This document shows, in pieces, positions 3,055 to 33,627 of a DNA stretch of 33,627 nucleotides. The notes beneath the pieces were generated by a model that searched no databases, was not told the origin of the DNA, and worked only from the letters and a program-made list of their open reading frames with translations. Source of the stretch: Planctomycetales bacterium. GTDB lineage: Bacteria; Planctomycetota; Planctomycetia; Planctomycetales; Planctomycetaceae. Position numbers and translations under genes: made by a program. Position 1 is the first letter of the stretch. Each line of letters starts with the position of its first letter. The DNA is taken from positions 1-33,627 of the forward strand of contig JAPLOA010000090.1 in NCBI GenBank assembly GCA_026400835.1, written 5' to 3'.

Positions 3055-4209
3055 ATGAATCCAAAGACTGCTTTCACGAAACTCGTGCGTTACGTCTCCC
3101 CTCTGTCAGCGCTGTGCCTCCTTCTGTCGTTGAATCGCGCTGCGGCTGACGACTACCAGTACAAGTTTGAACAGATCACAATCCCGAGGCCATCTGCTGA
3201 AGAACCCCGGCGTGACGCCGTTTCCGTGGACCTTGCCGGAACCTATCTGGAACAGGGTTCGCTCGCCTGGAGTGGCGAGAGAAAATGCGTGAGCTGCCAT
3301 ACCAATGGCACTTACATGGTCACTCGCCCCGCGCTCAGCGCCTCGCTGGGTCAGCCCCCGGAGGATACTCGACAGTTCTTTCTGACAACTCTGTCAAAGC
3401 TTCAGGAAGAAAAGCTGGACCGACTTAAGCAGTCAACCCGGCCTGCTCAGATTATTTACATTGCGGCCGGACTGTCAGAGTGGGATGCTCATGTGGCTAA
3501 GCAGTTATCTCCGGAAACTGAAAAGTCTCTTGAACTCATGTTCTCCATTCAGACGGAGAACGGGACATGGGGATCACTCGACTGCTGGCCTCCATTTGAA
3601 TCCGATGCGTACCACGAAGCTACTGTCGCCGCGATGGCTGCGGCGACGGCTCCCGGCTGGTTGCAGAAAGCAGAAGCCTCCGACAACGCGGCTCTCAAAG
3701 CGGGAATTGAAAAGCTGAAGAACTACCTGCGTACGGAAAAGCCGGCCCATGATTACAGTCGCACATTGCTGTTGTGGGCCAACAGTCGCATGACGGATCT
3801 GTTAAGTGCTGAACAAAAACAGGAGTTGATTGACGCGTTGGTCAGGCATCAGCGAGCGGATGGCGGTTGGTCGATTAGAACTTTCGCGGCTCCCGAAACA
3901 TGGGGCTCCGGAAACCGAGCCCCCAAGCTCAGGGCGGAACCGGAATTTGCGGATCCTCCCAGCGACGGTCATATGACAGGCTTGGCTGTGATCGTTCTTC
4001 GCGAAGCGGGGATTGGTGCGGATGATCCTCGCGTGCAGAAAGGCATCGCATGGCTCAAGGCCAATCAACGCGAATCCGGACGCTGGTGGACTCGATCACT
4101 GAACACCGACACCTGGCACTTCATCACTTACAGCGGCACGGCATATCCGCTTCTGGCGTTGCAGATGTGTGATGAGATTCCAAAGGCCACGGTCGCGCAG
4201 AATCCATAA
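3055..4209 (+). CDS. Exported squalene-cyclase-like alpha/alpha barrel protein with one CxxCH motif
   Basis: This 384-aa protein has an N-terminal signal peptide (about residues 1-31, ending RAAA/DD). It then carries a single heme-c-type motif, Cys78-Val-Ser-Cys81-His82 (RKCVSCHTNGTYM), and a helical region with squalene/oxidosqualene-cyclase-type repeats. Repeats are seen as IQTENGTWGSLDCWPPFES near 166-183, LVRHQRADGGWS near 262-273 and LKANQRESGRWW near 333-344. The DxDD catalytic motif of true hopene cyclases is absent, so terpene cyclisation should not be assumed. A periplasmic, heme-bearing or thiol-bearing barrel is the cautious reading. The ATG at 3055 has AAGGG 6 nt upstream. A terminator follows at 4229-4260, shared with the convergent tRNA gene. 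Confidence 0.8.
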   Translation: MNPKTAFTKLVRYVSPLSALCLLLSLNRAAADDYQYKFEQITIPRPSAEEPRRDAVSVDLAGTYLEQGSLAWSGERKCVSCHTNGTYMVTRPALSASLGQPPEDTRQFFLTTLSKLQEEKLDRLKQSTRPAQIIYIAAGLSEWDAHVAKQLSPETEKSLELMFSIQTENGTWGSLDCWPPFESDAYHEATVAAMAAATAPGWLQKAEASDNAALKAGIEKLKNYLRTEKPAHDYSRTLLLWANSRMTDLLSAEQKQELIDALVRHQRADGGWSIRTFAAPETWGSGNRAPKLRAEPEFADPPSDGHMTGLAVIVLREAGIGADDPRVQKGIAWLKANQRESGRWWTRSLNTDTWHFITYSGTAYPLLALQMCDEIPKATVAQNP

Positions 4210-4228
4210 TTCGACGTCGCCTGAAAAC

Positions 4229-4260
4229 AAAAAAGCCACCCGCAAAACGGGTGGCTTTTA
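4229..4260. terminator. Bidirectional intrinsic terminator
   Basis: An 11-bp stem (AAAAGCCACCC at 4231-4241 and its complement at 4249-4259) encloses a 7-nt loop. The + strand ends in TTTTA and the - strand in a longer T-rich run. It lies between the cyclase-like gene (+) and the tRNA-Lys gene (-) and can serve both. Confidence 0.85.
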
Positions 4261-4261
4261 G

Positions 4262-4614
4262 TGAACCGGGCGGGACTTGAACCCGCGACCTACGGATTAA
4301 CCTGCCGCACTGGCTTTCACCAGCCATTTCTTGTCTGTTGCGGTCTGGACTTTACCATCTCCCGAAACGGGAGCCACACGTCAAGTCTCTGAGGAGCCCC
4401 AGTCAATTGTTTTGTCTGCTGAACCCTTTACGAGTTCTCCAGAAGCAACATCTGACAAGGTTTCCTGCTGATTGCCCAATCCGTCAGATTGTCACGCTTT
4501 CGCGTACTGACGGCTCTCAGGGGGTTCCAGCATATGGTGCGGTTCTACCTCCAGCCTTCCGACCGGGGCACTCCTATTTAAAGTCCGTTGCTCTACCAAC
4601 TGAGCTACCGATTC
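4262..4614 (-). tRNA. tRNA-Lys(UUU) interrupted by a group I intron
   Basis: The 5' exon is 4581-4614 (34 nt) and the 3' exon 4262-4300 (39 nt). Spliced, they give a 73-nt class I tRNA: acceptor GAATCGG/CCGGTTC with one G-U pair and discriminator A; D stem GCTC/GAGC with loop AGTTGGTA; anticodon stem ACGGA/TCCGT; loop CTTTTAA; variable loop AGGTC; and T arm GCGGG-TTCAAGT-CCCGC. The anticodon is UUU, hence lysine. CCA is not encoded. The break falls after U34, the same anticodon position used by the intron in tRNA-Leu(UAA). Placing the junction one T further gives the same spliced loop. No other tRNA is nearby, so this is a solitary locus ending at the terminator 4229-4260. Confidence 0.9.
4301..4580 (-). 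ncRNA. Group I self-splicing intron in tRNA-Lys (280 nt, no ORF)
   Basis: The intron begins after exon U34 and ends in G (4301), as group I introns do. P1 forms between the 5' exon end GGACUU and the internal guide GAGUGCC, with a U-G pair at the splice site. A P/Q-type segment reads AATCAGCAGGAAACC. The R-type segment CTCAGAGACTTGACGTG and the S-type segment GGTAAAGTCC form P7 as GACUU (4383-4387) with AAGUC (4348-4352). A perfect P8 hairpin CTCCCG-TTT-CGGGAG (4359-4373) lies between them. No homing endonuclease is encoded. Boundaries are inferred from restoring the tRNA fold; the subgroup was not assigned. Confidence 0.88.
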
Positions 4615-4851
4615 ATCAGGACGCCGGACAAAATCCGGTTTCCCTTCTTTTCCCTCGACACACGAAGGAGTCGGCACGATACAAAGAAACGGCCGATTTT
4701 CCAGAGAAGACTCCCACCTTCGCGGAATTACCGGCGAATTATGAGTGGGATTCGCATTTCAGGTATTTTCCGGACTCTCAAATTCGCAGCAACCTCGTCT
4801 CTGAGCCCGTCCTGGAAGTCCCTGCGGTGCCTCAATGCACGTTTTAAGACC

Positions 4852-6300
4852 TTAGGAAAGCACTGGCCTCACAAGCTCTCCGTGAATGTCGGTCAGCCGA
4901 AAATCTCTGCCCTGATACTTGAATGTCAATTGCTTGTGGTCAACACCCAGCAGATGCAGAATCGTGGCGTTCAGGTCATGCACATGCACAGGATCGCGAA
5001 CAATGTTGTAACAGTATTCGTCCGTTTCACCGTGAGTTAATCCGGCGCGAATGCCGGCTCCTGCCATGAGCACAGTGAAGCATCGCGGATGATGGTCTCG
5101 TCCGTAGTCGGTTTCGCTCAATGAACCCTGAGAATAGATCGTGCGCCCAAATTCGCCGCCCCAGACGATCAATGTGTCTTTCAAAAGACCTCGTTGATCC
5201 AGATCGTTGATCAACGCTGTTGTCGCTTGATCCGTATCCTTGACCTGGCCACGCAGCGCGTTCGGTAAGCCGCCATGATGATCCCATCCCATGTGGAATA
5301 ACTGAACGAACCGTACATCGCGCTCTGCCAGTCTTCGAGCCAGTAAGCAGTTGGCCGCATAGCTTCCGGGGCGCATCACATCAGGGCCGTAACTTTCCAG
5401 TACGTGCTTCGGTTCGCCACTGACATCCAGCAGTTCGGGCACGCTGGTCTGCATGCGAAATGCCATTTCGTATTGCGCAATCCGAGTTTGGATTTCCGGA
5501 TCTCCGACCGTTTCAAAACGCTGTTGATTCAATGCACCCAGACGATCGAGTGTGCTGCGTCGAACCTGAGCAGATATCCCCGGCGGATTGCTGAGAAACA
5601 GAACCGCATCGCCCTGGTTTCGAAACTTCACGCCTTGATGTTTTGAGGGAAGAAAACCGGATCCCCAAAGACGATCATAAAGCGGCTGATCGTCAGGCCG
5701 GCCGCTCCCAAACGATGTGAGTACCACGTACGAAGGCAAATTGGCATTCTCGCTGCCCAATCCATAGCTCACCCACGAACCAATGCTGGGGCGTCCCGCT
5801 AACTGAGAACCCGTTTGACAGAATGTTATGGCCGGGTCATGGTTGATTGCTTCCGTATGCATGGAACGAATCATGCAGAACTTGTCGGCGATTGTTGGCA
5901 TATGAGTCAGCGCGTTGCTGAACCACATTCCCGATTTTCCATGCTGAGCGAAATCAAATACCGACGGTGCGACTGGAAATTTGGCCTGTCCGCTGGTCAT
6001 CGTTGTCAGTCGCTGGCCCTGACGAATGGACTCCGGCAAGTCTTCGCCATGATGGCTTTTCATCTGTGGCTTCGGATCGAACAGATCCATTTGCGATGGA
6101 GCACCCGACTGAAACAAATAGATGATTCGCTTCGCTTTCGCCTCATGAGTCGGAAACTTCTGCACGTTGGCATCTGCAGCCGAGAGTTGCTGCCCGGGCT
6201 GATTCATCAGTGCCGCCAACGCAGCTCCTCCGATGGCCGTGGAGCCATTCTTCAGGAAGATTCGACGATTCAAAATATCCCGAACTTGAAGTGGGTTCAT
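4852..6300 (-). CDS. DUF1501 family exported protein
   Basis: This second DUF1501 member has 482 aa from ATG 6300. The N terminus MNPLQVRDILNRRIFLKNGS carries a textbook twin-arginine motif (RRIFLK) followed by an Ala/Gly-rich hydrophobic stretch. Family landmarks are YLFQSGAPSQMDLFDPKP, then GGEFGRT, DYGRDHHPRCF and the C-terminal YQGRDFRLTDIHG. It belongs to the 'GRDFRLTDxHG' subgroup and is clearly different from the DUF1501 at 446-1849. The sulfatase-like fold suggests a hydrolase, but the substrate is unknown. An in-frame TTG at 6327 would place nine extra residues before the Tat motif; ATG is preferred. A Nudix gene lies 115 bp upstream on the same strand, so the two may be co-transcribed. 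No DUF1549/1553 partner is adjacent. Confidence 0.92.
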   Translation of the reverse strand: MNPLQVRDILNRRIFLKNGSTAIGGAALAALMNQPGQQLSAADANVQKFPTHEAKAKRIIYLFQSGAPSQMDLFDPKPQMKSHHGEDLPESIRQGQRLTTMTSGQAKFPVAPSVFDFAQHGKSGMWFSNALTHMPTIADKFCMIRSMHTEAINHDPAITFCQTGSQLAGRPSIGSWVSYGLGSENANLPSYVVLTSFGSGRPDDQPLYDRLWGSGFLPSKHQGVKFRNQGDAVLFLSNPPGISAQVRRSTLDRLGALNQQRFETVGDPEIQTRIAQYEMAFRMQTSVPELLDVSGEPKHVLESYGPDVMRPGSYAANCLLARRLAERDVRFVQLFHMGWDHHGGLPNALRGQVKDTDQATTALINDLDQRGLLKDTLIVWGGEFGRTIYSQGSLSETDYGRDHHPRCFTVLMAGAGIRAGLTHGETDEYCYNIVRDPVHVHDLNATILHLLGVDHKQLTFKYQGRDFRLTDIHGELVRPVLS

Positions 6301-6415
6301 AACAGATCCAGTCGCTGGAGTGCTCAATCAAGCGATTCGGAATGATATTGCTGGTGTTTCTGCTGCCCGATCGCTGCACACCATTGTATCTCAGCCGGAT
6401 TACCGCAACAACAAG

Positions 6416-6910
6416 TCAAAGACCACGAAACGCTCTGAACAACAAGAGGAATGCGGGAGAGAAATCTTCCGGGGTTCGCTGAGTCCATTCCTCAATCTCT
6501 GTGGGCATCATCCAGCGAATCTCGGTCATTTCCTGAGCATCCGGAAGAATCGGATCATCGGAGTTCGCGGTGTACAACACTGTGAACTCATGCGACGTTT
6601 TCGGGCACGCACTAAATTTTCGGACGTGAGTCACTGCTGCTTCTATGCCAAGCTCTTCGAACATCTCGCGAGGCGCGGTCTCGTCATAAGTTTCCCCAGC
6701 ACTCACGTGACCGGAGCAGGAAGACGTCCAGACAGAGGGGAATTCTTCCTTTGTGGGCGAGCGTTTGTGAATCAGCATTGCTCCGTCGGAGCGAAACACA
6801 AAAACATGAATGGCACGATGCAGCAGTTTGCGACGATGAACCTCTGATCGAGGTAACGTCTCAATCACTTCGTCCAGGGCATCGACGACATCAAACAGTT
6901 CCTCGGCCAC
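6416..6910 (-). CDS. Nudix hydrolase (YfcD/IPP-isomerase-like)
   Basis: This 164-aa protein has a complete Nudix box: Gly67-x5-Glu73-x7-Arg81-Glu82-x2-Glu85-Glu86-Leu-Gly-Ile. The acidic residues bind the divalent metals used to hydrolyse nucleoside-diphosphate-linked substrates. The flanking pattern HRAIHVFVFRSDGAMLIHKR and WTSSCSGHVSAGE is typical of the YfcD / isopentenyl-diphosphate-isomerase-like branch. The second half lacks features that would let me assign isomerase activity, so a phosphohydrolase with unknown substrate is the best call. The start is GTG at 6910; a weak GAAAG lies upstream. It precedes the DUF1501 gene on the same strand. Confidence 0.88.
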   Translation of the reverse strand: MAEELFDVVDALDEVIETLPRSEVHRRKLLHRAIHVFVFRSDGAMLIHKRSPTKEEFPSVWTSSCSGHVSAGETYDETAPREMFEELGIEAAVTHVRKFSACPKTSHEFTVLYTANSDDPILPDAQEMTEIRWMMPTEIEEWTQRTPEDFSPAFLLLFRAFRGL

Positions 6911-7036
6911 TCAATTGACTTTCAAAGCGATCAAGCTTTGCTGCAGGGGTGTGACAAGCGAGCCTCAGTGAACGGTCAAACCGGCCTGGTCTCCACTTGA
7001 TACCAACCGGATAATAGTTCGGGACCGTTCCAAAGC

Positions 7037-7068
7037 AAAAAAAATCCCCGGAGTTATCGTCCGGGGAT
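7037..7068 (-). terminator. Intrinsic terminator of the VWA-protein gene
   Basis: A perfect 9-bp stem (ATCCCCGGA at 7044-7052 and TCCGGGGAT at 7060-7068) is followed on the minus strand by eight T residues. It lies 16 bp beyond the stop of the VWA gene. Confidence 0.9.
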
Positions 7069-7084
7069 CTCGTACAACTTTTTG

Positions 7085-11475: not shown

Positions 11476-14400
11476 ATGAATCCAACAGATTCTTTCAAAA
11501 CATCCTCGATCAACAGTCGCCAGCTTTCCAGCAATCGGCGCCACACTGATCCCGACGGGAAAGCAGCCGGAGAATGGTGGCACGAGGCAGCTGACGGACG
11601 AATTGCCTGCGACCTTTGCCCCAGAGATTGTCATCTGAAGCCCGGCGATCGAGGATTCTGCTTTGTCCGCCAAAATGTTGATGGCCAGATGAAGCTGACA
11701 ACTTACGGTCGCAGTACAGGGTTCTGCATCGACCCTATCGAAAAGAAGCCACTCAATCACTTTTTCCCCGGCTCCCCGGTCTTGTCGTTTGGAACCGCAG
11801 GCTGCAATCTGGGATGTAAGTTCTGTCAGAACTGGGACATCTCCAAGTCGAGAGAAGTTGAGCGACTGAGCGAACTGGCCATGCCGGAAAGCATCGCTGC
11901 AGCAGCACTCAAAACGGGTTGTCGCAGCGTTGCTTTTACGTACAACGATCCAGTCATCTGGGCTGAATACGCCATCGACACGGCTCGCGAATGCAGGCAA
12001 CTGGGAATTCATCCGGTTGCTGTGACGGCAGGATACATCACCCCGAGCGCAAGAGCGGAATTCTTTCACGCGATGGATGCGGCCAATGTCGATCTCAAAG
12101 CCTTCACAGAAGATTTCTACGAACGCATCACGTATTCGAAACTCCAGCCTGTCCTGGATACTCTGCATTGGCTGAAACATGAAAGCGATGTCTGGTTCGA
12201 AATCACAAACCTGATTATTCCCGACGCGAATGATAGCCCTGATGAGCTCCGCCGAATGTGCGACTGGATTCTTGAATCCGTCGGCGCGGAAGTCCCCGTT
12301 CATTTTTCTGCGTTCCATCCCGACTTTCGCATGACCGATCGCCCTCGGACGCCCCACGAAACGCTGGTCATGGCGCGAGACATTGCGGTTCGTCAGGGGC
12401 TGAAGTTTGTCTATATCGGCAATGTGAACGACGTCTTCAATCAGAGTACATGGTGCCCTGGCTGTGGTGAGTTATTGATCGAACGAAACTGGTACCAGCT
12501 CGGTCTATGGAATCTGGACGGCAATGTCTGTCGCAAATGCAGGACTTTGATTCCGGGACGATTTGACAAGTCTCCTGGCTCATGGGGCAATCGGCGCCAG
12601 CCGATTCGAATCAGCGAGTATGCTGCTGAGCCTCAGGTACCATCCATGTTGAATCGAAGTTTGCTGCCACAACTCGAGTCGAACAACGACGACTCGCCTG
12701 AAGATCTTCATGCTCCGCCAGCCCCAACCTTAATGAATAGTCGCGTCATGAACACGCTGAAGACTGCCCCCGAACTCAGCTTATCCCAACAGCAAGCTCT
12801 GCAATTGGCGGCTTGTGAAATCGTTGCCGCCGCGGTCAATGGCACGGCTCCCCACCTTTCTGACCCATCTCTTGGTGGCCTCGCAGATCTCGAGGTCATG
12901 GGTGTCTTCGTGACGCTCAAGAAGTCTGGACAACTTCGAGGCTGTGTCGGGATGCTGGGTGAGCCCATGAAGATTCGTCCGGCCCTGCTTCAGGCCGGCC
13001 ATCGAACAGCCGTTGCGGATCAACGTTTTCCGCCTGTCGCAGCCCATGAATTACCGCATCTTACGCTGGATGTTACAATCCTGTTCAACTTCGAAACGAT
13101 TCACGAGATCGGTGAGGCTCGTACGGCCGCGATCGAAGTTGGAAAGCACGGTCTCAGGATTATTCATCAGGGGCGATCTGGTCTGCTATTGCCGATCGTC
13201 GCCGTGGAACAGCAATGGGATGCGCGGACCTTTCTGGAGCAGGTCTGTCGCAAGGCTGGACTGTCCTCCAATGCGTGGCTGCAACCGGATTCTCAGCTCC
13301 TGCGTTTTGAAGGTCGACTGATCGAAGGCCCGTTTTCTACTTCCGTTGCGGAACGAGCGATCCAAAGTTCTGCGCCGCCGCGTTCAACACTGCCATCTCA
13401 GGATTATGTGCGATCATTGGCCACGTTCGTGACAGCCAATATCCGATCGCTGGCTCAGGGAGCTATTCCAGCCTGTTTTCCCAGTCATTTGTCGGACCGA
13501 GCAGTGGACGGGCTCGCAATACAGTTAGCCTTGTCCAACGGACAGCGGATAACGTTCTCGAAGCTGCAACCGAGCAGCGGTGTCCCGTTGCAGATGACTC
13601 TGCTGGAACTGGCCCAGTCGGCGGCCAGCTGGCTGCAGCAGTCAAAGACCGCACCTTCTCAGATTTCCGCTGACGTCCTGCTTCTCTTTAATGCGGAGCA
13701 ATTGAAGTCGTTAAACTCCGAGAGCCTTAGTCGTCTTAACCCCGAAGACACTTTGCTGCTGCTTACCGATGGCAGCAAGACCACCTGGCGATTCCAGCGA
13801 AAGGTATGTCTTGAGCAGACATTGCAGCAGCTTTTTCAGGATATTGCTCTTTCCGATTCCAGTCAGGCCGGATTGTTTCGCTTCACTGCCTGCTGTAGTT
13901 GCGATGAAGTCTCGGTCACCAGTCGTCCTCAACCCCAACAAGGTCCAGCACTGCGCAAGCCGGCAGTCGCGGGAAAGTTTTATCCTGCGAGCCCAAAAGC
14001 TTTGGCAGGACTCATCAACAGTTGCCTGGGCATAATTTCCGAGGAGAAGGAACACTGGCCGGCGGTGATGGTGCCACATGCCGGTTTACAGTATTCCGGA
14101 CGCATTGCCGGGGAGGTCTTTCGACGAGTCCATATCCCTGAATCCGTGATCATCATTGGCCCAAGGCATACTCGTAACGGAGTTGATCTGGCAGTGGCTC
14201 CCAACGTTGAGTGGGAATTGCCCGGGCAGATTGTTGCTTCCGACATTGCTTTAGCGAAAGCGATCGTTGCCGGAATCCCCGGACTTCAGTTCGATGCGGC
14301 TGCTCATGCCGCTGAACACAGCATCGAAGTCGAGCTGCCTTTTCTGGCTCGACTTGCCCCCCGGGCTCGAGTCGTCGGTATCACAATTGGTTCAGCGAGT

Positions 14401-14757
14401 CTGGAACAATGCCTTGCGATCGGTCGCCAGCTGGCCGATGTGATCCGTACGCTTCCCGTGCCGCCACTTCTTGTGATTTCAAGCGATATGAATCACTTTG
14501 CGACCGACACAGAGAACCGTCGCCTTGATGAGCCGGCGTTAAAGGCGATGGAGACGCTGTCCCCGGTAACCTTGTTTGAGACAGTTCGTTCTCAAAATAT
14601 CAGTATGTGCGGAGTACTTCCGGCTGTGATCGTCATGGCGGCCCTCGAATCACTTCGGCAACTCAAGCAGGCGGTGCGTACCGGCTACGCGACCAGTGCT
14701 GATGTTTCAGGAGATGCCGGTCGAGTCGTCGGTTATGCCGGAATGCTGCTGGGATAG
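11476..14757 (+). CDS. AmmeMemoRadiSam fusion: radical SAM - AMMECR1 - AMMECR1-like - Memo
   Basis: This 1093-aa protein joins the three partners of the AmmeMemoRadiSam system, normally separate genes. (1) Residues about 40-380 are the radical SAM enzyme: N-terminal Cys45/48/52/62, the 4Fe-4S motif Cys110-x3-Cys114-x2-Cys117, and two late CxxC pairs (327/330, 352/355) suggestive of a metal site. (2) Residues about 430-620 are AMMECR1, with the LRGCVG signature at 487-492. (3) Residues about 640-810 have AMMECR1-like spacing but lack that signature, so may be a degenerate second copy. (4) Residues about 828-1093 are Memo, with candidate metal ligands His868 (VPHAG), His898, Asp1004, His1007 and Cys1045 (MCG). 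A Pro/Asn-rich linker joins modules 1 and 2. The system's reaction is not known to me; the fusion argues for obligate 1:1:1 action. ATG 11476 is chosen as the first start before recognisable sequence. It ends 8 bp from the convergent sialidase gene. Confidence 0.9.
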   Translation: MNPTDSFKTSSINSRQLSSNRRHTDPDGKAAGEWWHEAADGRIACDLCPRDCHLKPGDRGFCFVRQNVDGQMKLTTYGRSTGFCIDPIEKKPLNHFFPGSPVLSFGTAGCNLGCKFCQNWDISKSREVERLSELAMPESIAAAALKTGCRSVAFTYNDPVIWAEYAIDTARECRQLGIHPVAVTAGYITPSARAEFFHAMDAANVDLKAFTEDFYERITYSKLQPVLDTLHWLKHESDVWFEITNLIIPDANDSPDELRRMCDWILESVGAEVPVHFSAFHPDFRMTDRPRTPHETLVMARDIAVRQGLKFVYIGNVNDVFNQSTWCPGCGELLIERNWYQLGLWNLDGNVCRKCRTLIPGRFDKSPGSWGNRRQPIRISEYAAEPQVPSMLNRSLLPQLESNNDDSPEDLHAPPAPTLMNSRVMNTLKTAPELSLSQQQALQLAACEIVAAAVNGTAPHLSDPSLGGLADLEVMGVFVTLKKSGQLRGCVGMLGEPMKIRPALLQAGHRTAVADQRFPPVAAHELPHLTLDVTILFNFETIHEIGEARTAAIEVGKHGLRIIHQGRSGLLLPIVAVEQQWDARTFLEQVCRKAGLSSNAWLQPDSQLLRFEGRLIEGPFSTSVAERAIQSSAPPRSTLPSQDYVRSLATFVTANIRSLAQGAIPACFPSHLSDRAVDGLAIQLALSNGQRITFSKLQPSSGVPLQMTLLELAQSAASWLQQSKTAPSQISADVLLLFNAEQLKSLNSESLSRLNPEDTLLLLTDGSKTTWRFQRKVCLEQTLQQLFQDIALSDSSQAGLFRFTACCSCDEVSVTSRPQPQQGPALRKPAVAGKFYPASPKALAGLINSCLGIISEEKEHWPAVMVPHAGLQYSGRIAGEVFRRVHIPESVIIIGPRHTRNGVDLAVAPNVEWELPGQIVASDIALAKAIVAGIPGLQFDAAAHAAEHSIEVELPFLARLAPRARVVGITIGSASLEQCLAIGRQLADVIRTLPVPPLLVISSDMNHFATDTENRRLDEPALKAMETLSPVTLFETVRSQNISMCGVLPAVIVMAALESLRQLKQAVRTGYATSADVSGDAGRVVGYAGMLLG

Positions 14758-14764
14758 TGGCCGT

Positions 14765-16375
14765 TTATTTCGATGACGAGCCAGATCTGGCTGCGGGATT
14801 CAATAACTCTCTCAGCGTAAATCGCTCAAACATAAGATGCGACTGACTGCCTTCGTAGACGATTCCCACATGCTCCGCATCGATCTGAGTCAGGCTCGGA
14901 TATCCGGCTCCGCGTCCTTCATCCAGCAGGAGATGATGAGAACTCGGCCACGTTTGCCCCTCATCAAAGCTCACCTGAATCGTATGATGAGTTCTCCCTT
15001 TCTGCGTGTGAGGATTCGCAAACAACAGCACGTGTTTTTTCTCTCCGGACTCTTCATAGTTCACACGCAGTAAACTGCCGTTGCAGTTGGGTTCGATGAG
15101 CGTATTGCGACTCGTGGCATGAGCCTCCCATGTTTGTCCGAGATCCTTCGAAACGACAACGGCTCGATATCGCTCATGATCGTTGCGAATATTCAGCATG
15201 ATTGAATTATCGCTCAGCATCACCGCCTGACATTCATTGCCGCCAGCGTAGCCCGGGTTGCCCACGGTCCAGGTCACTCCGTGATCTTTACTGATCATCA
15301 CGGTGGCAAATGTCGCCAGAGGTTCACGTCCAGTCCGCCCCTGAACCGGCATGACCAGCGTACCGTCCGGCAACTGAATTCCCTGTTGTGGCGCCGGGGC
15401 CAGCAACCACCATGATTCCTGCTTGAGCTTGCGTGTCATATTTACGGGCGTCGACCAGGTGAGTCCGTCATCCTTTGAGCTGACCATCATAAACTGAGCC
15501 GTCTTGCCGATTTCAAATCCCGGCTCGGAGCCGTCGTCAACCCACTGATGCTTTCCCGGCTTACCATTCATCCACAGGGCGAAACAGAAGATCTCGCCGG
15601 TTTGTCGATCGATGATCAGTCCCGGATCACTGCATCCATTTTCTTCCTGAGGCAACCCGCCAAACTCGCCCATATCCATGATGACTTTTACCGGCTCCCA
15701 CGACTGGCCACCGTCAGTGCTGCGGCTGAGTCCGATATCGATATCTTCCTGCAGATCACGTCCCATGCGCCGCCGCATATCGTAGACACTGAGCAGAGTT
15801 CCTTTTGCGGTCGTCCCCAGCGCGGGGATTCGGTAGGTGTGCACGCCGTCATCCTGATTTCGACGCAGAGCAACCCCGATGCGATGCCGCTTGCCCGGCG
15901 ACTCATTCACAACGCTGACGACGCCGCTGTTCGTGCTGATCTGAGTACAGACTGCAGCAACATGATGCGACAGGTCGGCCGTCTCCGTCAGCTTGCCCGA
16001 CAGCCAAAAGATGTTTCTCCCTGAACGAAGTGTCGTCTTGCCCTTAAATGATGTTTTCGGCATCGGCTTCTGAGTATCACCGAACTGAGTTTCCGTCGAA
16101 AAGCGGTCTTCTGAGCCCGTTGAATACAACGACAGAGATTGGAGATCAGAAACTTCGTCCGTGCCCTCGAGTGAGAACTCAAATGCCTCGACTTCGCCCT
16201 GCAATCCCTCGGGGAGGTCCACGATCACTTTAACGATCGGACCGTGTTCATTACGAATCAGGATCGGATGAACAGGACTGGCGCAAGTGACCTTCAATTC
16301 GGCGCTCAAGGCACATGGTCGCATCAGGAGCAACTGGCAGGATAATATGACGAGTGGAAAGATCGTCTTTGTCAT
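14765..16375 (-). CDS. Exported exo-sialidase (GH33-type BNR neuraminidase)
   Basis: This 536-aa protein has a signal peptide (about 1-25), an N-terminal beta domain (about 30-150) like the BNR-associated N-terminal domain, then a six-bladed sialidase propeller. Five Asp-boxes (S-x-D-x-G-x-T/S-W) are visible, e.g. SRSTDGGQSW, SSKDDGLTW, SKDHGVTW, SKDLGQTW and SFDEGQTW. Residues expected for GH33 catalysis are present: Arg182 in YRIP, Asp199 in SVYDMRR, Glu381 in NECQAV, Arg397, Arg461 in the GRT segment, and Tyr492 in GYPSL. It should release terminal sialic acids, or related nonulosonic acids, from external glycans. No sialic acid catabolism genes (nanA, nanE, nanK) are nearby, so the product may not be used through a local operon. 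ATG 16375 has AGAGG upstream. Confidence 0.9.
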   Translation of the reverse strand: MTKTIFPLVILSCQLLLMRPCALSAELKVTCASPVHPILIRNEHGPIVKVIVDLPEGLQGEVEAFEFSLEGTDEVSDLQSLSLYSTGSEDRFSTETQFGDTQKPMPKTSFKGKTTLRSGRNIFWLSGKLTETADLSHHVAAVCTQISTNSGVVSVVNESPGKRHRIGVALRRNQDDGVHTYRIPALGTTAKGTLLSVYDMRRRMGRDLQEDIDIGLSRSTDGGQSWEPVKVIMDMGEFGGLPQEENGCSDPGLIIDRQTGEIFCFALWMNGKPGKHQWVDDGSEPGFEIGKTAQFMMVSSKDDGLTWSTPVNMTRKLKQESWWLLAPAPQQGIQLPDGTLVMPVQGRTGREPLATFATVMISKDHGVTWTVGNPGYAGGNECQAVMLSDNSIMLNIRNDHERYRAVVVSKDLGQTWEAHATSRNTLIEPNCNGSLLRVNYEESGEKKHVLLFANPHTQKGRTHHTIQVSFDEGQTWPSSHHLLLDEGRGAGYPSLTQIDAEHVGIVYEGSQSHLMFERFTLRELLNPAARSGSSSK

Positions 16376-18978: not shown

Positions 18979-20061
18979 CTACTTTACGTTTGCCTGCACA
19001 CGTTTTTTGGCCCGCTCATGCAGTTCGACGGGAACAAACTTCAACAATCGCTCGATCACAACATCGGGAGTCACACCCTGACTGGCGGCCGTAAATGTGG
19101 TCATGATGCGATGCCGCAGCACAGGCTTGGCTACAGCTTTCACGTCATCCGTTGTGACATGAAATCGTCCCTGCAGCAACGCATGCGCTCGCGCGCCGAG
19201 AATCAGATACTGCCCGGCTCGCGGACCTGCACCCCAGGAAATCAGTTCCTTGATGAACGGCGGAGATTCGGATTCTCCCGGACGAGTGGCCCGGACCAGA
19301 TCTCGAGCGTACACAAAGACATAATCCGCGCAGGGAACTCGACGAACCACATCCTGCAACGTCCGGATCTGTTCGGCATTCAGAATCGGGGTTAGTTGTG
19401 GCTTTGATATGCCGGTTGTCTGTTTCAGAATCTGCAGTTCTTCCGCAGCCGACGGATATCGCACCATCACATGGAACATAAACCGATCCAACTGCGCTTC
19501 GGGCAGAGGATAGGTGCCTTCCTGTTCGATGGGATTCTGCGTGGCCAGCGTGAAGAATGGATCCGGCAGATGATACGTCTGAGAACCCACGGTCACATGA
19601 CGTTCCTGCATTGCCTCCAGTAACGCTGCCTGAGTCTTCGGTGGAGTTCGATTGATTTCGTCGGCCAACAGAACGTTGGTAAACAGCGGTCCCTGAATAA
19701 ACTGAAACACTCGGCGACCCGTCTCGGGATCATCCTGCAGAATGTCTGAGCCAGTAATATCTGATGGCATCAGGTCAGGTGTAAACTGGATTCGTCGAAA
19801 CGAAAGTTGCAGAATCCCGGCGATGGTGCTGCACAGCAGTGTCTTCGCCAGTCCGGGAACTCCGACCAGCAAACAGTGACCGCGACAGAACATGGCGATC
19901 AGGAGCTGATTGACGACTTCATCCTGCCCGACGATCACCTTGCCGATTTCCTGCCGCATCTGCTCATAAGCTTTGGTCAGACCGGAGATCGCCTGTTCCT
20001 CGGCTGCGGTCGGTGCCACTTCGGGCGGATCATTGTTACTCTGTGTGTCGGCGTCAGACAT
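18979..20061 (-). CDS. MoxR family AAA+ ATPase
   Basis: This 360-aa protein is a MoxR ATPase. Walker A is GVPGLAKT (67-74), Walker B LLADEIN (131-137), with sensor-region motif [23 protein letters not shown] (split across about 180-205). MoxR proteins act as chaperones, often for VWA-domain partners, and usually sit directly before a DUF58 gene. Here no DUF58 gene is adjacent: the next minus-strand gene is the acylase, 253 bp away with palindromic repeats between. It may work with the VWA protein at 7085-9016 or with genes outside the window. ATG 20061 has no good ribosome binding site. It is divergent from the exonuclease gene, with 97 bp between starts. Confidence 0.93.
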
Positions 20062-21476: not shown

Positions 21477-22448
21477 ATGGACGCTCAAACAATAGATCAG
21501 GCTAATGGCGGAATGAAGCGACGACTGGGTCGAGGACTCAGTGCTCTGCTTGGTGGCGGCATGGACGAGTCAGAGAACTCGCGGCCGGCTACAATCCCAA
21601 TGCATGCCTCATCCGCACCGCCAGCACCGGCGTCCGATGAGATCTCACTTGAACTCATCGATCGTAATCCATTCCAGCCACGTCGCGACTTCGACCAGGC
21701 CGCGATTGATGAACTGGCCGACAGTATTCGAAAACATGGTCTGCTGCAGCCACTGCTGGTTCGTGCTCGCCAGGACGGCGAAGCGGGCTATCAGTTGATT
21801 GCCGGCGAGCGCCGCTGGCGTGCGGCTCAGCAGGTCGGGATGGAAACAGTCCCTTGTCGAGTCATCGAATTCGGCGACCGTCAGGCCAGCGAAGCAGCTC
21901 TCGAAGAGAACCTTAAACGAGAAGATCTGAACGTGCTGGAAAAGGCACGAGCGTTCAAGGACTATCTGGACCGCTTTGGCGGTACGATTGAAGAGCTGGC
22001 TCGTCAGCTCAGCATGAGCCGTGCCAACGTCAGCAACATGATGCGCATGCTGGAACTGCCGGAGAGCGTTCAGAAGCTGCTGCGAGAGGACCGGATTACC
22101 GGCGGACATGCTAAAGCAATTCTGCCACTGTCAGAAGCTCAGCAGTTTGAATTGGCTACGCAGATCGAACTGGAACAGTTGTCAGTTCGCCGGACCGAAG
22201 AGATCGTGCGAGAAATGCTGAAGGCCGGCATGATGGCTCTGCCAACAGACGCTGAGGCCTCGGCACCAGCAGCCGAGAAGCCAGCGATGTCGAATCATGT
22301 TTTGTCACTGCAGCAGTCTCTGCGTGACATGCTGGGTGCAAAGATTGACATCAAGCAGAAGAAGAATGACTCCGGTCAGATTGTGATTCACTTCGGCAAC
22401 AACGATGACTTCGAACGCATCATGGGGCAGCTTCGTAAAGCCTCCTGA
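21477..22448 (+). CDS. parB: ParB/Spo0J chromosome partitioning protein
   Basis: This 323-aa protein is a ParB CTPase-type DNA-binding protein. The N terminus carries the ParA-interaction motif RRLGRGLSALLG (about 15-26). The ParB/Srx domain follows, with IDRNPFQPRRDF (61-72) and the nucleotide-binding GERRWRAA (110-117). A helix-turn-helix spans about 170-192 (ARQLSMSRANVSNMMRML), then ITGGHAKAIL, and a C-terminal dimer domain (about 275-323). It binds parS sites and slides as a CTP-loaded clamp to load SMC and segregate the origin region. The usual upstream parA is absent; an exonuclease gene lies there instead. A well-matched parS (TGTTTCACGTGAAACA) was not seen in the window. ATG 21477 has GAGG upstream. 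A strong terminator follows. Confidence 0.95.
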   Translation: MDAQTIDQANGGMKRRLGRGLSALLGGGMDESENSRPATIPMHASSAPPAPASDEISLELIDRNPFQPRRDFDQAAIDELADSIRKHGLLQPLLVRARQDGEAGYQLIAGERRWRAAQQVGMETVPCRVIEFGDRQASEAALEENLKREDLNVLEKARAFKDYLDRFGGTIEELARQLSMSRANVSNMMRMLELPESVQKLLREDRITGGHAKAILPLSEAQQFELATQIELEQLSVRRTEEIVREMLKAGMMALPTDAEASAPAAEKPAMSNHVLSLQQSLRDMLGAKIDIKQKKNDSGQIVIHFGNNDDFERIMGQLRKAS

Positions 22449-27873: not shown

Positions 27874-29478
27874 ATGCAAGCTCCGCGAACTCCGGAATTT
27901 TGCCGCGCGATAGTGACCGCGCTGCTCACTGTGACCATTGCTTCATCCGCGATGGCTCAAACAAGTCGCATCAGCCGCACGGAAGCCGATTTCAATGATC
28001 TGAATCGACGACTGCCATCCGGAGAGATTGGAAGTCTTCAGGATCTTCGATCGCGTCCCACAGTTCCGCCCGCCAGATCGGTTGACTATAACAAAGTCGA
28101 CAAGCGTGCTCTCGCAAACCTGCTGAAGGAAACCACTGACGAAGCCGGTCGCTTATACACTTCTCTCGATGCCGACTACCGAAGAAATCCAAGCCTGCGG
28201 CCGATGTTGTCTGATCTTCAGAAACTGCGAGGACTAGCGAATCTTGTCAGCCAGGATCTTGCGGCCGGTGTCGCTCTGGAAAACATTGTCGCAGACTTCC
28301 GTCAGATTGATGCCGACTGGCGACTGCTGTCACATCGACTGGCCCAGTCAGCGGGATTGAGTAACGCAACATTGCAAAGCATCGACCGAATTGATCGTCT
28401 TGATCAGCAGGTTGGAAAACTGTTTCAGGTTGACCCGTCTCTGGATCGTCGAGCCCTCCAGCAGCAGCTCGGCATTCTTGACAGTTCTCTGTACAACATG
28501 AGTGATGAACTCCGCCGTGACCTGAATGCGTCGACCAAGGTCTCTTTGATGGTCAGTGATACTCGCAAGCTTCAGCAGCAGGTTGCACGCATCGATGAAC
28601 TTGTGATCGATAATTATCCTTACGAACGAATCGTCAGCGAATACAACCGCTTCGAGCGTGCCTGGGCTGTAATGCTGGATCAGGTTGCGACGGTCAATAA
28701 TCCCTACATCGAGCGATCTGTTCGTCGCATAATTGATGCCGATAACCTGATTCATGAACTGCTGTGGATTGAAAATACCACCAGCCGCGCACAGTTGAAG
28801 CAAACGGCTGATGCTTTAATTCGCGACGTGGATGAATTCTACAACCGCACTCCCCTGAAGCTGCTGCTGACTTTCAAGAATGCCACTGGTACTTTGCAGA
28901 TCGCGGACAACTTTTATGGCACTGTCCAGAACTTCAAGGACAATGTTGACCGCAATGAAAGCGACCAGGAGCTGATCGAAAGCTATCGCTATGTGGAAGA
29001 GTACGGCACCGTCTTCGTGCGGACATTCAGTGCTTTAAAGAGCCAGGCGGCCGTCGTCGTGTTGCGTGAGATCGAGGACGGCATCGCCGCTCTGCGGGCC
29101 GAATTGAATTTGGGTGGCACGGTTTCACAGGTAGATACGCGAGAATTGATTCCAATAGCGGCTTCGCTGGAAAATCTGTCCGACCAGATGGAGTTTGATA
29201 TTCGAGCCTGGTTGGCTAAAGCTCGTCCCACTTATCGTGCAGAAGTGACAGCCGCCACAACTGCTTTTATGAAGCGGACCCAAAAACTCCACCGTATGCT
29301 GGATTCTGAACCGACCCTGCAGGAGCTGCAAAAAGAAACCGACAGCCTTTATCAGGAATGGAAAACGGTTTACGGGTACTTGTCCCGTTGTACGACGGAA
29401 GAACGTCTGAATTTGTCACAGATCGCTTCTGAGATTCGAAGAGATCTCACGGATTTGAACGGTTCACTTCGTCTCTGA
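27874..29478 (+). CDS. Exported all-helical protein of four approx. 115-residue repeats
   Basis: This 534-aa protein has a signal peptide (cleavage near AMA/QT at 28-30) and no recognised family. The rest is predicted all-helical. Four diverged units of about 115 residues can be seen, each opening with a short R-x-L helix: DKRALANLLKETTDEAGRLY (about 76), LDRRALQQQLGILDSSLYNM (about 190), SRAQLKQTADALIRDVDEFY (about 304) and DTRELIPIAASLENLSDQME (about 421). In units 1 and 2 a later segment repeats as VADFRQIDADWRLL and VSEYNRFERAWAVML. It should be periplasmic, perhaps a structural or binding scaffold; no function is assigned. ATG 27874 has AAAGGA 7 nt upstream. A terminator follows. Confidence 0.82.
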   Translation: MQAPRTPEFCRAIVTALLTVTIASSAMAQTSRISRTEADFNDLNRRLPSGEIGSLQDLRSRPTVPPARSVDYNKVDKRALANLLKETTDEAGRLYTSLDADYRRNPSLRPMLSDLQKLRGLANLVSQDLAAGVALENIVADFRQIDADWRLLSHRLAQSAGLSNATLQSIDRIDRLDQQVGKLFQVDPSLDRRALQQQLGILDSSLYNMSDELRRDLNASTKVSLMVSDTRKLQQQVARIDELVIDNYPYERIVSEYNRFERAWAVMLDQVATVNNPYIERSVRRIIDADNLIHELLWIENTTSRAQLKQTADALIRDVDEFYNRTPLKLLLTFKNATGTLQIADNFYGTVQNFKDNVDRNESDQELIESYRYVEEYGTVFVRTFSALKSQAAVVVLREIEDGIAALRAELNLGGTVSQVDTRELIPIAASLENLSDQMEFDIRAWLAKARPTYRAEVTAATTAFMKRTQKLHRMLDSEPTLQELQKETDSLYQEWKTVYGYLSRCTTEERLNLSQIASEIRRDLTDLNGSLRL

Positions 29479-29863: not shown

Positions 29864-30682
29864 CTACAGTGCCTCAACTCTCCTTGCGCCGTAATAGACG
29901 GTCAGGAATGGCTCACCGTTTCGACCGATACCAGTGGCGATGTGCCCCAGAGCACTGGATGTGATCGGCAGGATCCAGGAAAAGAAATCTTCGTGGGGAA
30001 TCTGCAGCGTTGCAACTGCGGCCAGAAGTGTCGACTGAATATGTCCCAGACTCCATTGACCGTCGTAGACGTTGAGATCCCACGAGCGACGATCACTGCC
30101 TTCTTCCGAGATCTCCAGCAACGGATAGATCTCCGTGGCTTTCTGTGACGACGGTTGAAGTTGTTGCAGGAGTGAGTCGACGGCGACGCGCATTTTGTGA
30201 TCTGTCGCTGCGAGCAGCAGTGACTTAATCTCGGACCAGTCTTGAACGATTGAAGACTTGTAGCGCGAGACGACGGCGATCGACGAATTTTGAAGCGACC
30301 ATTTGAAACCAAGAAACTGCAGTCGTCCGGATTGGAAAGGTTGCGTTGCGTCTGGAGGAGGAAGTTCGAGGTAACATTTGCCGATACGGGTTTTTCCGGA
30401 GTACTCAAACCCAAAGTGAACGAAGGCTGCGGCGTTGATAAAACGTGCGATGCTCTGCAGGAACATTTCTGGAGCATTCATTACCCGGCAAATATGCAGA
30501 ACATCCCTGGGCGTTTCGTGGCCGGCCTCCGCGAGTGAAAAAGAAAGCAGGCATCGGCGAGTTTCCAGAATCCCCTGCGACAATCGAACGGACTGCTCGA
30601 GCCCGCACGACAGTTTTCTGGCCGCGGCCCATGTTTGCAGTTCGCTCAAGCCGAATTCGGCGAAGGTCTCGAGGAAGTTCAT
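29864..30682 (-). CDS. Hypothetical protein, repeated beta-hairpin/helix pattern
   Basis: I do not recognise this 272-aa protein. It has no signal peptide. The sequence alternates helices with beta-hairpin-like segments: FGFEYSGKTRIGKCYLELP (about 90-108), IYPLLEISEEG with SWDLNVYDG (about 185-208), and LGHIATGIGRNGEPFLTVYYG (split over about 245-265). The last hairpin, ending in a G-x-P-x-x-x-V-Y-Y-G form, together with the beta-beta-alpha-alpha order, is reminiscent of the ABBA-type aromatic prenyltransferase barrel, but length and motifs do not settle this. Treat it as a hypothesis. ATG 30682 lacks a good ribosome binding site. The divergent neighbour is the DUF4175-like gene, 359 bp away. 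Confidence 0.7.
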   Translation of the reverse strand: MNFLETFAEFGLSELQTWAAARKLSCGLEQSVRLSQGILETRRCLLSFSLAEAGHETPRDVLHICRVMNAPEMFLQSIARFINAAAFVHFGFEYSGKTRIGKCYLELPPPDATQPFQSGRLQFLGFKWSLQNSSIAVVSRYKSSIVQDWSEIKSLLLAATDHKMRVAVDSLLQQLQPSSQKATEIYPLLEISEEGSDRRSWDLNVYDGQWSLGHIQSTLLAAVATLQIPHEDFFSWILPITSSALGHIATGIGRNGEPFLTVYYGARRVEAL

Positions 30683-31041
30683 AGGACGCCGATCGGAGAA
30701 AACGGTCTGGCAACGTGACGTGAAACTGCGTGAAGAATTCAGTCCAGACTTTGTTAGATAAGATAGACTTTCGGGGGGATCTCACCCTGGAATGCAGGGT
30801 TTTGGTGGCACCTCGTCAGAAATCGCAAATCGAACGGCAGACTGCGACATGGGCAACGTGGCCTGTGGGCGAGAAGCAAAGTCCCTGCAATCGGTTCGTT
30901 CCGCTTATTTTGACTGCCCCTGAAGCATCGTGGCCGATAAACTTGAGCAAGACGGAACATCTGAAAACTGCTCGTGCGTCAGTTCGATCGTGTCGCTGGT
31001 CGAACTTGCGACGCCGGCAATCTCAGTTCAGGATTTTTCAC
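30683..31041. other. Divergent intergenic region
   Basis: This gap separates the unrecognised minus-strand gene from the DUF4175-like gene. I see no supported gene, RNA or hairpin. Both promoters should lie here. Confidence 0.45.
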
Positions 31042-33627
31042 GTGGCAACAGTTTCCGACAAGTCTCAGCAGGGTTATGCGGATCCGGATGAATTCATCCA
31101 GTATCAGCTTGAGCAGGCTCGCAGCCGCATCAAGGCGACCGACCTGCTCACCGCTTCGGTGCTCGCTGGACTGTTGCTGATTGGTTACGTGTTCGCCTTT
31201 ACGGTTCTTGATCATTGGGTCATCGACGGCGGCTTCGGTGCCTGGACTCGCGCGGGGATGTTGATTGTCGTTGTCCTGCTCTGTTCGGCCATCTTGATTC
31301 GATATGTCGCGATGCCGTGGTTTCGACGCATTCATCCGCTGTATGCCGCGCGAATGCTGGATCGATCATCTCAGGGGCTGGAAGGCAGTCTGCTGGCGTT
31401 GATCGATCTGCAGTCCGGTGGTCGTAAGAATGATACTCCGATTCAGAAGTCACTGGAGAAGCGAGCGGCCGTTAAGCTGGCTGAAGTTCATGTTGATGAA
31501 GCCATCGATCGACGAATGCTTATTCGGCTCGGCACTGCGCTGTTTGTGATCACGCTGTTGACTTGTCTGTACGCGGTCTTCAGTCCGAAAGCCATCAGCC
31601 TGCTTCGACCTCTGACCCTTGCCGCTGCGAATGTGTCGACTCGAACTGTCGTCGAAACCGTGCTGCCGGGAAACAAGAAAGTCCCGGCGGGAACTCGCAT
31701 TGAGTTCGTCGCGGACATCGCCGGAGTGATCCCTGAAGATGTGCGGGTGCTCTATACCACGGCCGACAAGCGATACGTGGATGAGCCATTGCAGATGCGA
31801 GCCACTGAAGATGAAAATCGCTTCCAGGTTTTAATGATCGGCGACGGTGACCGCGGAGTACGACAGGATATCAAGTATCGCATCGTCGCCGGAGATGCAT
31901 CGTCGGAAGAGTATTTGATTTCTGTCAATCAGCCACCGACAGCGCAGGTGAATGAAGTCAAATATGTTTATCCAACGTATATGCAATTATCGGATCGAGT
32001 CGATACGTCGGGAGCGATTGATGCGTGGGAGGGTAGTGTCGTCACGATCCATGCTCAAAGCAGCGTCCCGGTAAAGTCTGCGATACTGCAGTTATCGGAC
32101 GATGCCGGGTTTACTGCCCACGGTGAAGAAGTCGCGATGGTGATCAAAGACACCGCGCTGACCGGAGAACTGAAGCTGGACGTCCGTGCGGATCAGTCGG
32201 TGCCGAAGTTTTACAGAATCACAGTGACCGATGAAGACGGAAACTCCGATCCGGAGCCCGTTGTTTATCCGCTGGAGATTCGTCGCGACCAGCCTCCCAT
32301 CGTCAAGCTATTGGATCCAAATCGTGATCTTCAGGTTGCGGCCAACGCGATCGTCCCGCTATTGGTGGAGGCCGAAGATCCTGACTTCCTGCTGCGTTCA
32401 GTGACGCTGAATTATTCGATTAATGGTAAACCGGTTCAGCCATCGGAAGTGCTGCTGGACACATCCGGGATTCCTCTGCCGAAAAAGTGGAGTGACACAT
32501 GGGAGTTTCGGCTGTCAACTCTGAAACTGATTCCCGGCGATGTCGTCACGTATCATGTTCAGGCTCGCGATAACCGGCCGCCGTTGGGAAATCAAGGACG
32601 CTCGGGTGATCTGAATCTGCAGATCGGCGCCCCGATCGCTGACGAAGAAGTTCAGAAGCAATTGGCCCAGGATCGGGAGCTCCAGCAACAGTTGAAGGAT
32701 CGCCAAACGCCGGATGTTTCTCCGACCAATTCAGGAACTGATCCTGAAGAAATGCAGTTGGCTGATTCGCCGCCGACCGAAGGTGCGGCACCTGAAGAGG
32801 TACCGACAGAGCCTGAAGCCGATCCCGCTGCACCAAAGAATGATCAGCCAAATGCGAATCCACAGGGCTCCGGGAATCCGGCTGAGCAGAAAAGTGGCAC
32901 TGCGGAGAATACTGGTAAGAAAAACGCGACGAAGCAGAATTCGAACGGTGAGTCTCAGCCCGGGAAGACAACGTCGCCAACTCAACCGAATCGTCAACGA
33001 GCGGATGACGATGTGGCTTTACAGCGGTTGATCGAAAAGATGAATCGCCAGCGACAGGAGAATCCCGGTGAGCACGGTGAGGACTCCACAGAATCACGTC
33101 CTGACCAAACGATCGAACCGGGATCTGAAAAGGATCCCGAAAACAAGCCATCAGAGGATAAGGAACCGCAGTCCGAACCGTCTGATTCAGAAACGAAGCC
33201 AGATGCTGCCGGATCCGAGCCTAAAGCTGCGTCAGAGAAATCGCAGCCGAAATCTGCAGACACTTCTGAGTCGACAGAGCCCTCGGATTCCGAGATGAAA
33301 TCGAACGAAGGTGAAACTGAGCCAAATTCGAAGTCGAATAGCGACGAGCCTGGTGAGAATTCAACGACGCCTGAGAAGTCTGAACCGCCTCAGGCAGCCG
33401 ACGAAAATTCGTCGATGAATGAGCCGAATATGGAACCGGGTGAACCCAAGACTGGTGAAACCAAGTCCGGTGAACCCAAGTCCGGTGAACCCAAGACTGG
33501 TGAATCCAAGACTGGCGAACCCAAGTCTGGCGAACCCAAGTCTGGCGAACCCAAGTCTGGCGAACCCAAGTCTGGCGAACCCAAGTCTGGCGAACCCAAG
33601 TCTGGCGAACCCAAGTCTGGCGAACCC
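31042..33627 (+). CDS. DUF4175-like membrane protein, partial, with KSGEP repeats (runs off window)
   Basis: The frame is open from GTG 31042 to the window edge (862 codons, no stop). It starts MATVSDKSQQGYADPDEF with three predicted transmembrane segments: LLTASVLAGLLLIGYVFAF (about 45-63), MLIVVVLLCSAILIRY (about 73-88) and LGTALFVITLLTCLYAVF (about 158-175). A periplasmic beta-rich part follows (about 180-520), with NQPPTAQVNEVKYVYPTYMQ and YHVQARDNRPPLGNQG. Then a disordered, Pro/Glu/Lys/Ser-rich stretch (about 540-800) leads into pentapeptide repeats (KSGEP). Planctomycete proteins of this kind have been labelled DUF4175 or 'circumsporozoite protein' because of such repeats. They often sit with MoxR/VWA genes. 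The GTG has AGGA 8 nt upstream; an in-frame TTG at 31006 is possible. Confidence 0.8.
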   Translation, partial: MATVSDKSQQGYADPDEFIQYQLEQARSRIKATDLLTASVLAGLLLIGYVFAFTVLDHWVIDGGFGAWTRAGMLIVVVLLCSAILIRYVAMPWFRRIHPLYAARMLDRSSQGLEGSLLALIDLQSGGRKNDTPIQKSLEKRAAVKLAEVHVDEAIDRRMLIRLGTALFVITLLTCLYAVFSPKAISLLRPLTLAAANVSTRTVVETVLPGNKKVPAGTRIEFVADIAGVIPEDVRVLYTTADKRYVDEPLQMRATEDENRFQVLMIGDGDRGVRQDIKYRIVAGDASSEEYLISVNQPPTAQVNEVKYVYPTYMQLSDRVDTSGAIDAWEGSVVTIHAQSSVPVKSAILQLSDDAGFTAHGEEVAMVIKDTALTGELKLDVRADQSVPKFYRITVTDEDGNSDPEPVVYPLEIRRDQPPIVKLLDPNRDLQVAANAIVPLLVEAEDPDFLLRSVTLNYSINGKPVQPSEVLLDTSGIPLPKKWSDTWEFRLSTLKLIPGDVVTYHVQARDNRPPLGNQGRSGDLNLQIGAPIADEEVQKQLAQDRELQQQLKDRQTPDVSPTNSGTDPEEMQLADSPPTEGAAPEEVPTEPEADPAAPKNDQPNANPQGSGNPAEQKSGTAENTGKKNATKQNSNGESQPGKTTSPTQPNRQRADDDVALQRLIEKMNRQRQENPGEHGEDSTESRPDQTIEPGSEKDPENKPSEDKEPQSEPSDSETKPDAAGSEPKAASEKSQPKSADTSESTEPSDSEMKSNEGETEPNSKSNSDEPGENSTTPEKSEPPQAADENSSMNEPNMEPGEPKTGETKSGEPKSGEPKTGESKTGEPKSGEPKSGEPKSGEPKSGEPKSGEPKSGEPKSGEP
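33439..33627 (+). repeat. 15-bp tandem repeat encoding GEPKS (12.6 units to window end)
   Basis: Twelve full 15-bp units (GGY-GAA-CCC-AAG-TCY type) plus three codons lie in frame within the DUF4175-like gene. The first five units (33439-33513) vary, with ACT/TCC for the last codon and ACC or TCC for CCC. The last seven full units (33514-33618) are identical. The array continues beyond the window. Confidence 0.95.

Follow-up and report, generated by a model that had tools for sequence, protein, structure and literature searches.

A planctomycete AmmeMemoRadiSam system fused into one polypeptide with a second, degenerate AMMECR1-like domain

The fused gene and its modules

This study concerns a gene at positions 11476-14757, on the plus strand, of a 33,627-nucleotide stretch of DNA from Planctomycetales bacterium (contig JAPLOA010000090.1 of assembly GCA_026400835.1; the whole stretch is called the window below), in which the components of the AmmeMemoRadiSam system, a radical SAM protein (rS), an AMMECR1 protein (A) and a Memo protein (B), are joined in one product. 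An original prediction, made from the letters of this DNA alone, had placed all three in one open frame of 1093 amino acids, and this held: the frame translates without a stop into 1093 residues from its ATG at 11476. An in-frame TTG lies upstream, at 11308, and conservation begins near residue 32. The polypeptide consists of four modules, in the order rS - A - A' - Memo, of which A' is identified here as a second AMMECR1-like domain, an assignment on which profile comparison, an AlphaFold2 model and a search of PDB folds agree. The three modules originally named therefore stand, but the fourth, at residues ~615-826, had been overlooked, and the order said to be fixed by the fusion was incomplete without this degenerate domain.

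All modules are encoded on the plus strand. The rS module (residues ~32-384, 11569-12627) matches TIGR04337 of NCBIfam over residues 33-379 with 598 bits, against a cutoff of 220. Its CxxxCxxC motif is C110-x3-C114-x2-C117, and all three cysteines are invariant in an alignment of 68 rows, as are C45/C48/C52/C62 and C327/C330/C352/C355. A linker follows (residues ~385-431, 12628-12768), and then module A, a canonical AMMECR1 domain (residues ~432-614, 12769-13317), which matches TIGR04335 over residues 440-614 (122.6 bits, cutoff 99) and carries LRGCVG at 487-492, with L487, R488, C490 and G492 invariant in the 68 rows. A' (residues ~615-826, 13318-13953) lies between A and module B, the Memo domain (residues ~827-1093, 13954-14754), which matches TIGR04336 over residues 827-1091 (242.8 bits, cutoff 26) and has VPHAG at H868, SSDMNH at 1002-1007 and MCG at C1045. 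The Pfam models Radical_SAM, AMMECR1 and Memo each exceed their cutoffs too, and every signature motif first proposed lies within the frame.

Predicted structures agree with these family assignments. The nearest solved folds are MEMO1 for B (TMt about 0.80) and PH0010, of the AMMECR1 family, for A (0.77), and the nearest radical SAM folds of rS are those of the pyruvate formate-lyase (PFL) activating enzyme (3cb8, 8fo0 and 3c8f; TMt 0.77). The original prediction had held that relatives of these proteins reach humans, and module B indeed aligns with human MEMO1 (3bcz, 7kq8) in fold and in iron ligands: H868, H898 and C1045, invariant in the 68 rows, align with MEMO1 H49, H81 and C244, which are given as its iron ligands in PMC11081632.

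The host genome (7.58 Mb, 99.99% complete, 112 contigs) gave one match each for Memo, for AMMECR1 and for the whole fused protein; because each is single, the fused gene appears to be the host's whole AmmeMemoRadiSam system.

A second AMMECR1-like domain

The roughly 210 residues between A and Memo match no Pfam or NCBIfam family. Searched against Pfam, the A' of the window's protein gave no family at E up to 10, and PF01871 was not one of the 25 families listed when 74 A' members were searched (matches listed, E up to 0.93). Direct comparison of A and A' within the protein, using the two sequences only, gave short collinear pieces, the best at 18.1 bits (E 0.096). In profile form, with the first 13 sequences, the comparison of A' with A reached E 2.6e-5 (probability 75), and with 74 sequences hhalign aligned 166 columns, collinear along the whole domain, at E 5.3e-10 (probability 96.6). 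The same A' profile gave E 0.2 against Memo and 0.052 against rS, and the best score from 30 column-shuffled alignments was 18.1, versus 66.4 for the real pair. Seven more distant proteins that the A' model did not match at E 1e-3 were aligned separately; they belong to Phycisphaerales, to Verrucomicrobia and, in one case, to a further planctomycete. Their alignment matched A' at E 4.1e-8 (probability 95) and also A, at E 3.2e-4 though with a probability of only 39, but did not match Memo (E 0.2) or rS (E 0.56).

The AlphaFold2 model of A' (pLDDT 90.6, pTM 0.82) points the same way. At E <= 0.001 the PDB search returned only five chains, all from the AMMECR1 structures 1zq7, 1vaj and 1wsc; the following match had E 4.4e-3 and TM 0.14, and other folds, including PNP-oxidase-like ones, had E of at least 0.0044 and TM of 0.1-0.2. 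Could residues 615-826 nonetheless be an unrelated new domain, its likeness to AMMECR1 an artefact of shared general folds? The missing PF01871 among the families listed and the moderate TM-scores to AMMECR1 structures would suit such an origin, but a full-length collinear profile match whose controls fail, together with a fold search in which AMMECR1 structures alone fall under E 0.001, makes it very improbable.

If A' is an AMMECR1 relative, is it a working one? Twenty-six positions conserved at 95% or more in 80 A rows were scored in 74 A' rows. C490 and G492 were retained in 0%, R488 in 7%, D515 in 3%, K593 in 4% and R517 in 23%; A' mostly keeps only G476 (88%), with L587 in about half of the rows (57%), and its alignment has gaps at the positions of E525, P573 and V575. 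The LRxCxG motif and most of the other residues conserved in A are thus absent from A'. Because C490 and G492 are kept in none of the 74 rows and R488 in 7%, we consider A' a degenerate relative rather than a working AMMECR1; it looks like a worn-down copy of A.

A' is nevertheless under purifying selection, though A's conserved residues are lost. Its dN/dS is 0.148 and 0.127 against two related loci (L054 and L055), where A has 0.118 and 0.131; a more distant pair (L057), with saturated dS, yields no omega for rS or Memo but gives 0.221 for A', 0.138 for A and 0.773 for the linker. Such selection would also be expected if A' were a diverged binding domain with a ligand of its own, at a substrate-carrier or regulatory site, which would make the protein a true four-function enzyme. 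A' does have majority motifs of its own (GATPxYY, SLRxGxPLQxTLFxLC and DPAMHGTxxxPDL, as consensus), but DPAMHG is missing from the protein of the window, no columns of A' other than G662 and P665 are conserved to 90% over 74 rows, the lone invariant column, R827, belongs to Memo, and A' is absent altogether from three fused loci (L127-L129) and from one genome with separate genes (G298). We therefore regard a separate ligand as unlikely.

Occurrence of the fusion

The sample from the class comprised 248 genomes, for which rows were counted by hand and two-piece matches were checked as frames. Any match at all was found in 84 of them, a figure that counts weak hits on other radical SAM proteins as well. 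In 42 a single frame contains both rS and Memo, matched in one piece in 33 and in two pieces in 9, each of the 9 being confirmed as a single frame; this count stood on re-examination. The genome of the window is in 112 contigs, which might invite the suspicion that separate genes became joined through an error in sequencing or assembly; this was the circumstance in which the original prediction would have fallen. Orthologous fusions refute that explanation: they occur in 42 of 248 genomes, among them the single-contig genomes G048, G069, G181, G238 and G325, and CP036279 (L106), a complete genome, has one as well. We give it practically no credence.

Eighty named loci were the best of 471 when ranked against the fused query; shares among them are therefore biased to fusions and are not frequencies. 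In 77 of the 80, rS, A and B lie in one frame; A' is recognized by its model in 67 of these, seven have an unrecognized stretch of A' length and three have none, and in six of the 77 rS is truncated by a contig end. Of the remaining three loci, two break off after A, and in L125 rS is encoded in one frame and A-A'-B in another. The loci are labeled Planctomycetaceae, Gimesia, Fuerstiella, Pirellulaceae, Isosphaeraceae, Phycisphaeraceae and Verrucomicrobia; two labeled Candidatus Kuenenia are taken to be mislabeled. Among the matches listed for 194 genomes of Verrucomicrobiota, none besides G494 spans the modules, and among eight plasmid records found, none had at least 80% query coverage.

The statement that the components are usually three genes is right for relatives, with the qualification that in at least ten unfused ones the genes are on different contigs or far apart. 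Within the phylum, they lie on different contigs in G193, G226, G047, G136, G151, G120, G204, G068 and G086, and in G107 the three are more than 450 kb apart; G309, G329, G386 and G473, also unfused, have all three clustered.

Splits and losses

In a tree of 109 rS rows, rooted for drawing only and containing one very long branch (L040), a single clade of 85 rows (support 100/97) takes in all the fused ones. Four rows with rS only fall in it too: G167 (L010), G250 (L037), L125 and a second, long-branched rS of G266 (L046). In single-contig genome G167 (L136), a 410-aa rS frame (5850-7079, minus strand) is followed by a 705-aa A-A'-Memo frame (3618-5732, minus strand), the two genes being in the same frame with stops between, which makes a secondary split near the linker probable. 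In G250, and in G396, which is outside the tree, rS and A-A'-Memo are on different contigs. L125, with the two parts in different frames, may be an assembly fault. At four loci with a separate rS (L136, L044, L125 and L189), A-A'-Memo remains one unit.

The three fused loci in which A' is wanting, L127-L129, group together (100/100) next to L105, a protein in which the intervening stretch is present, and A' was therefore probably lost once in that group. G298 (L187) has a 422-aa rS frame beside a 755-aa frame in which Memo comes directly after AMMECR1, with no A' between. About 270 unassigned residues precede AMMECR1 in the latter frame.

The reverse order of modules was encountered as well. 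G167 has a second system at C1:98396-99913 (L051, L053), a 572-aa frame with Memo at 56-332 and AMMECR1 at 422-560, and the same Memo-AMMECR1 order occurs in G607 (L192), whose long frame had been a candidate fusion and was rejected on that ground.

Linker and module spacing

In the full-length model (pLDDT 87.2) the rS-A linker is disordered over residues 386-424, where pLDDT is below 50. It spans 7-76 aa in 79 proteins and reaches about 150 aa at most in another five genomes, and its omega of 0.70 (L054) and 0.75 (L055) is nearly neutral. The gap from A to Memo is steady: 74 of 77 fused proteins have 183-229 aa there, and the three without A' (L127-L129) have 8 aa. With a disordered, variable linker on one side and a steady A-to-Memo distance on the other, the protein is organized as a flexible rS head and an evenly spaced A-A'-Memo core.

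What does this mean for the proposal that fusion implies passage of substrate between modules? The proposal is weakened: the disorder, changing length and near-neutral evolution of the linker, taken with the apparent separations of rS in G167, G250, G396 and L125, argue against obligatory channeling from rS. Passage is possible within A-A'-Memo, and the evidence does not favor a channel from rS.

The same observations might be taken further, to mean that the fusion serves mere co-expression, that the modules work as separate proteins and that A' is a folded spacer left by duplication of A. A near-neutral, length-variable linker, the four cases of separate rS and the scattering of the genes over different contigs in unfused relatives are all compatible with this. 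A spacer would hardly need the purifying selection found in A', however, nor would it account for the stretch of A' length kept in 74 of 77 proteins, nor for a core that stays undivided where rS has gone its own way, and we hold co-expression as the sole role to be doubtful, though not far-fetched.

Relation to known systems

The known AmmeMemoRadiSam system (TIGR04335/TIGR04336/TIGR04337; annotated amrB and amrS) is the obvious counterpart, with the three components above curated cutoffs and motifs intact here; it differs in being encoded by separate genes, whereas the present protein is one polypeptide with an extra, degenerate AMMECR1 domain between A and B. Burroughs et al. (J Biol Chem 294:10211, published in 2019) reportedly proposed an association of Memo with the modification of nucleotide bases or isoprenoids. 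The archaeal AMMECR1 structures (1vaj, 1zq7, 1wsc) share the fold of module A, and human MEMO1 the fold and metal ligands of module B; unlike the modules, all of these are stand-alone proteins. An association of Memo, AMMECR1 and radical SAM in Memo-Ammecr1 systems (Burroughs et al., 2019) is cited in PMC7159879.

The PFL activating enzyme is the nearest solved fold of rS, from which rS differs by the extra invariant cysteine clusters at both of its ends; the likeness is one of fold only, the match of rS to the PFLA equivalog (56.8 bits) being far under the cutoff of 231.75.

The rS rows nearest outside the fused clade (L012 and L031; 98/92) adjoin a gene in which AMMECR1 is fused with LigB, and so a ring-opening-dioxygenase-type domain can stand in Memo's place. 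These loci (L138 of G207 and L151 of G019) resemble the window's gene in combining rS with AMMECR1 fused to a domain of the Memo superfamily, and differ in having PF02900 LigB instead of Memo and rS as a separate gene. The LigB-AMMECR1 genes lie at L138:6952-8337 (minus strand) and L151:3243-5021 (plus strand). Judged by eye, a Glu of theirs stands close to where Memo has its Cys, a residue that lies beyond the end of the profile alignment. In PMC11081632, Memo is placed near the extradiol dioxygenases and C244 of MEMO1 is described as replacing the Glu of LigB. In keeping with this, the His-His-Glu iron site of LigB-type class III extradiol dioxygenases is not found in module B, where C1045 occupies the position of C244.

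The modules are known and are annotated piecewise by existing models, and none of the family libraries searched names an architecture of four modules that includes a degenerate AMMECR1 copy. Among the matches listed in a search of the open literature (titles and beginnings of abstracts), there was no paper on the fusion or on a second AMMECR1 copy.

How the protein may work

Taking the evidence as a whole, the explanation we find best, and think somewhat probable, is that a flexibly tethered, PflA-like rS head serves an A/Memo iron core in which A' is a non-catalytic scaffold. The head would make a 5'-deoxyadenosyl radical and act on a small or flexible substrate, and A, through R488 and C490, and Memo, through its iron site (H868, H898 and C1045), would handle that same substrate as a unit. 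A' might be a non-catalytic pseudo-subunit that keeps A against Memo, perhaps replacing a second A protomer. The fusion would then mainly secure equal amounts and proximity rather than a sealed channel.

Several points weigh against this explanation. The TM-scores of the A' model to AMMECR1 structures are moderate (0.43-0.54), and the pTM of the full-length model is only 0.61. A' is the least conserved folded module, with a median identity to the window's protein of 0.19, as compared with 0.69 for rS, 0.53 for Memo and 0.45 for A, and just two of its columns, G662 and P665, reach the 90% at which conservation was judged over 74 rows (three of the 68 rows of the other alignment lack A'). The L127-L129 clade is fused, and the A-Memo frame of G298 persists, without A'. 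For human MEMO1, finally, no dioxygenase activity was found, according to PMC11081632.

A more specific form of the scaffold explanation, which we put forward tentatively, is that A and A' are an intramolecular pseudo-dimer: AMMECR1 domains would act in pairs, one here catalytic and the other degenerate, clamped on Memo.

Neighboring genes

Frames flanking the fused gene showed little constancy, the commonest cluster occurring in 16 of 81 loci with no fixed place; many loci have short flanks. A DUF3467 frame lies directly upstream on the same strand in eight of the 81 loci, ending 67-252 bp before the rS domain. It was named by Pfam for L061 only (6179-6922, plus strand), the other seven (L064, L066, L067, L068, L083, L088 and L110) being assigned by similarity.

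In the window, the fused gene is convergent with a gene for a BNR-repeat sialidase-like protein (14765-16375, minus strand), their stops 7 bp apart. Further along are a penicillin-amidase family protein (PF01804; 16509-18752, minus strand) and, adjoining it, a MoxR-type AAA ATPase (18979-20061, minus strand), then a PolB-type exonuclease-like protein (PF10108; 20138-21019, plus strand) followed by a ParB homologue (21477-22448, plus strand). Three long frames, of 534 aa (27874-29478, plus strand), 272 aa (29864-30682, minus strand) and at least 966 aa (30730-33627, plus strand), have no Pfam match at E 1e-4.

Significance

To our knowledge, human AMMECR1 has no settled biochemical activity. 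The same is said of human MEMO1 in PMC11081632. Table 1 of PMC13386939 lists AMMECR1 as the anaerobe marker of top feature importance, present in 3.38% of 4,227 aerobes and 50.66% of 1,293 anaerobes. Haem-copper oxidase (COX1) was found in all 14 genomes chosen (13 with the fusion and the split G167), a hand-picked and non-random set, and there is a hint in this that carriers of the fused form respire. Organisms with the fused protein may accordingly offer aerobic hosts for study.

A single polypeptide with AMMECR1, Memo and radical SAM at 1:1:1 allows the three to be tested jointly through one construct and one deletion. Moreover, natural variants are supplied by the presence of A', by its loss from one clade and by the cases in which rS appears separated; they distinguish the parts that remain together (A-A'-Memo) from the one that does not have to (rS). 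If A and A' do form a pseudo-dimer, the fused protein would be a frozen snapshot of an AMMECR1-MEMO1 assembly that forms in other organisms too, and would provide a direct handle on the reaction of the system.

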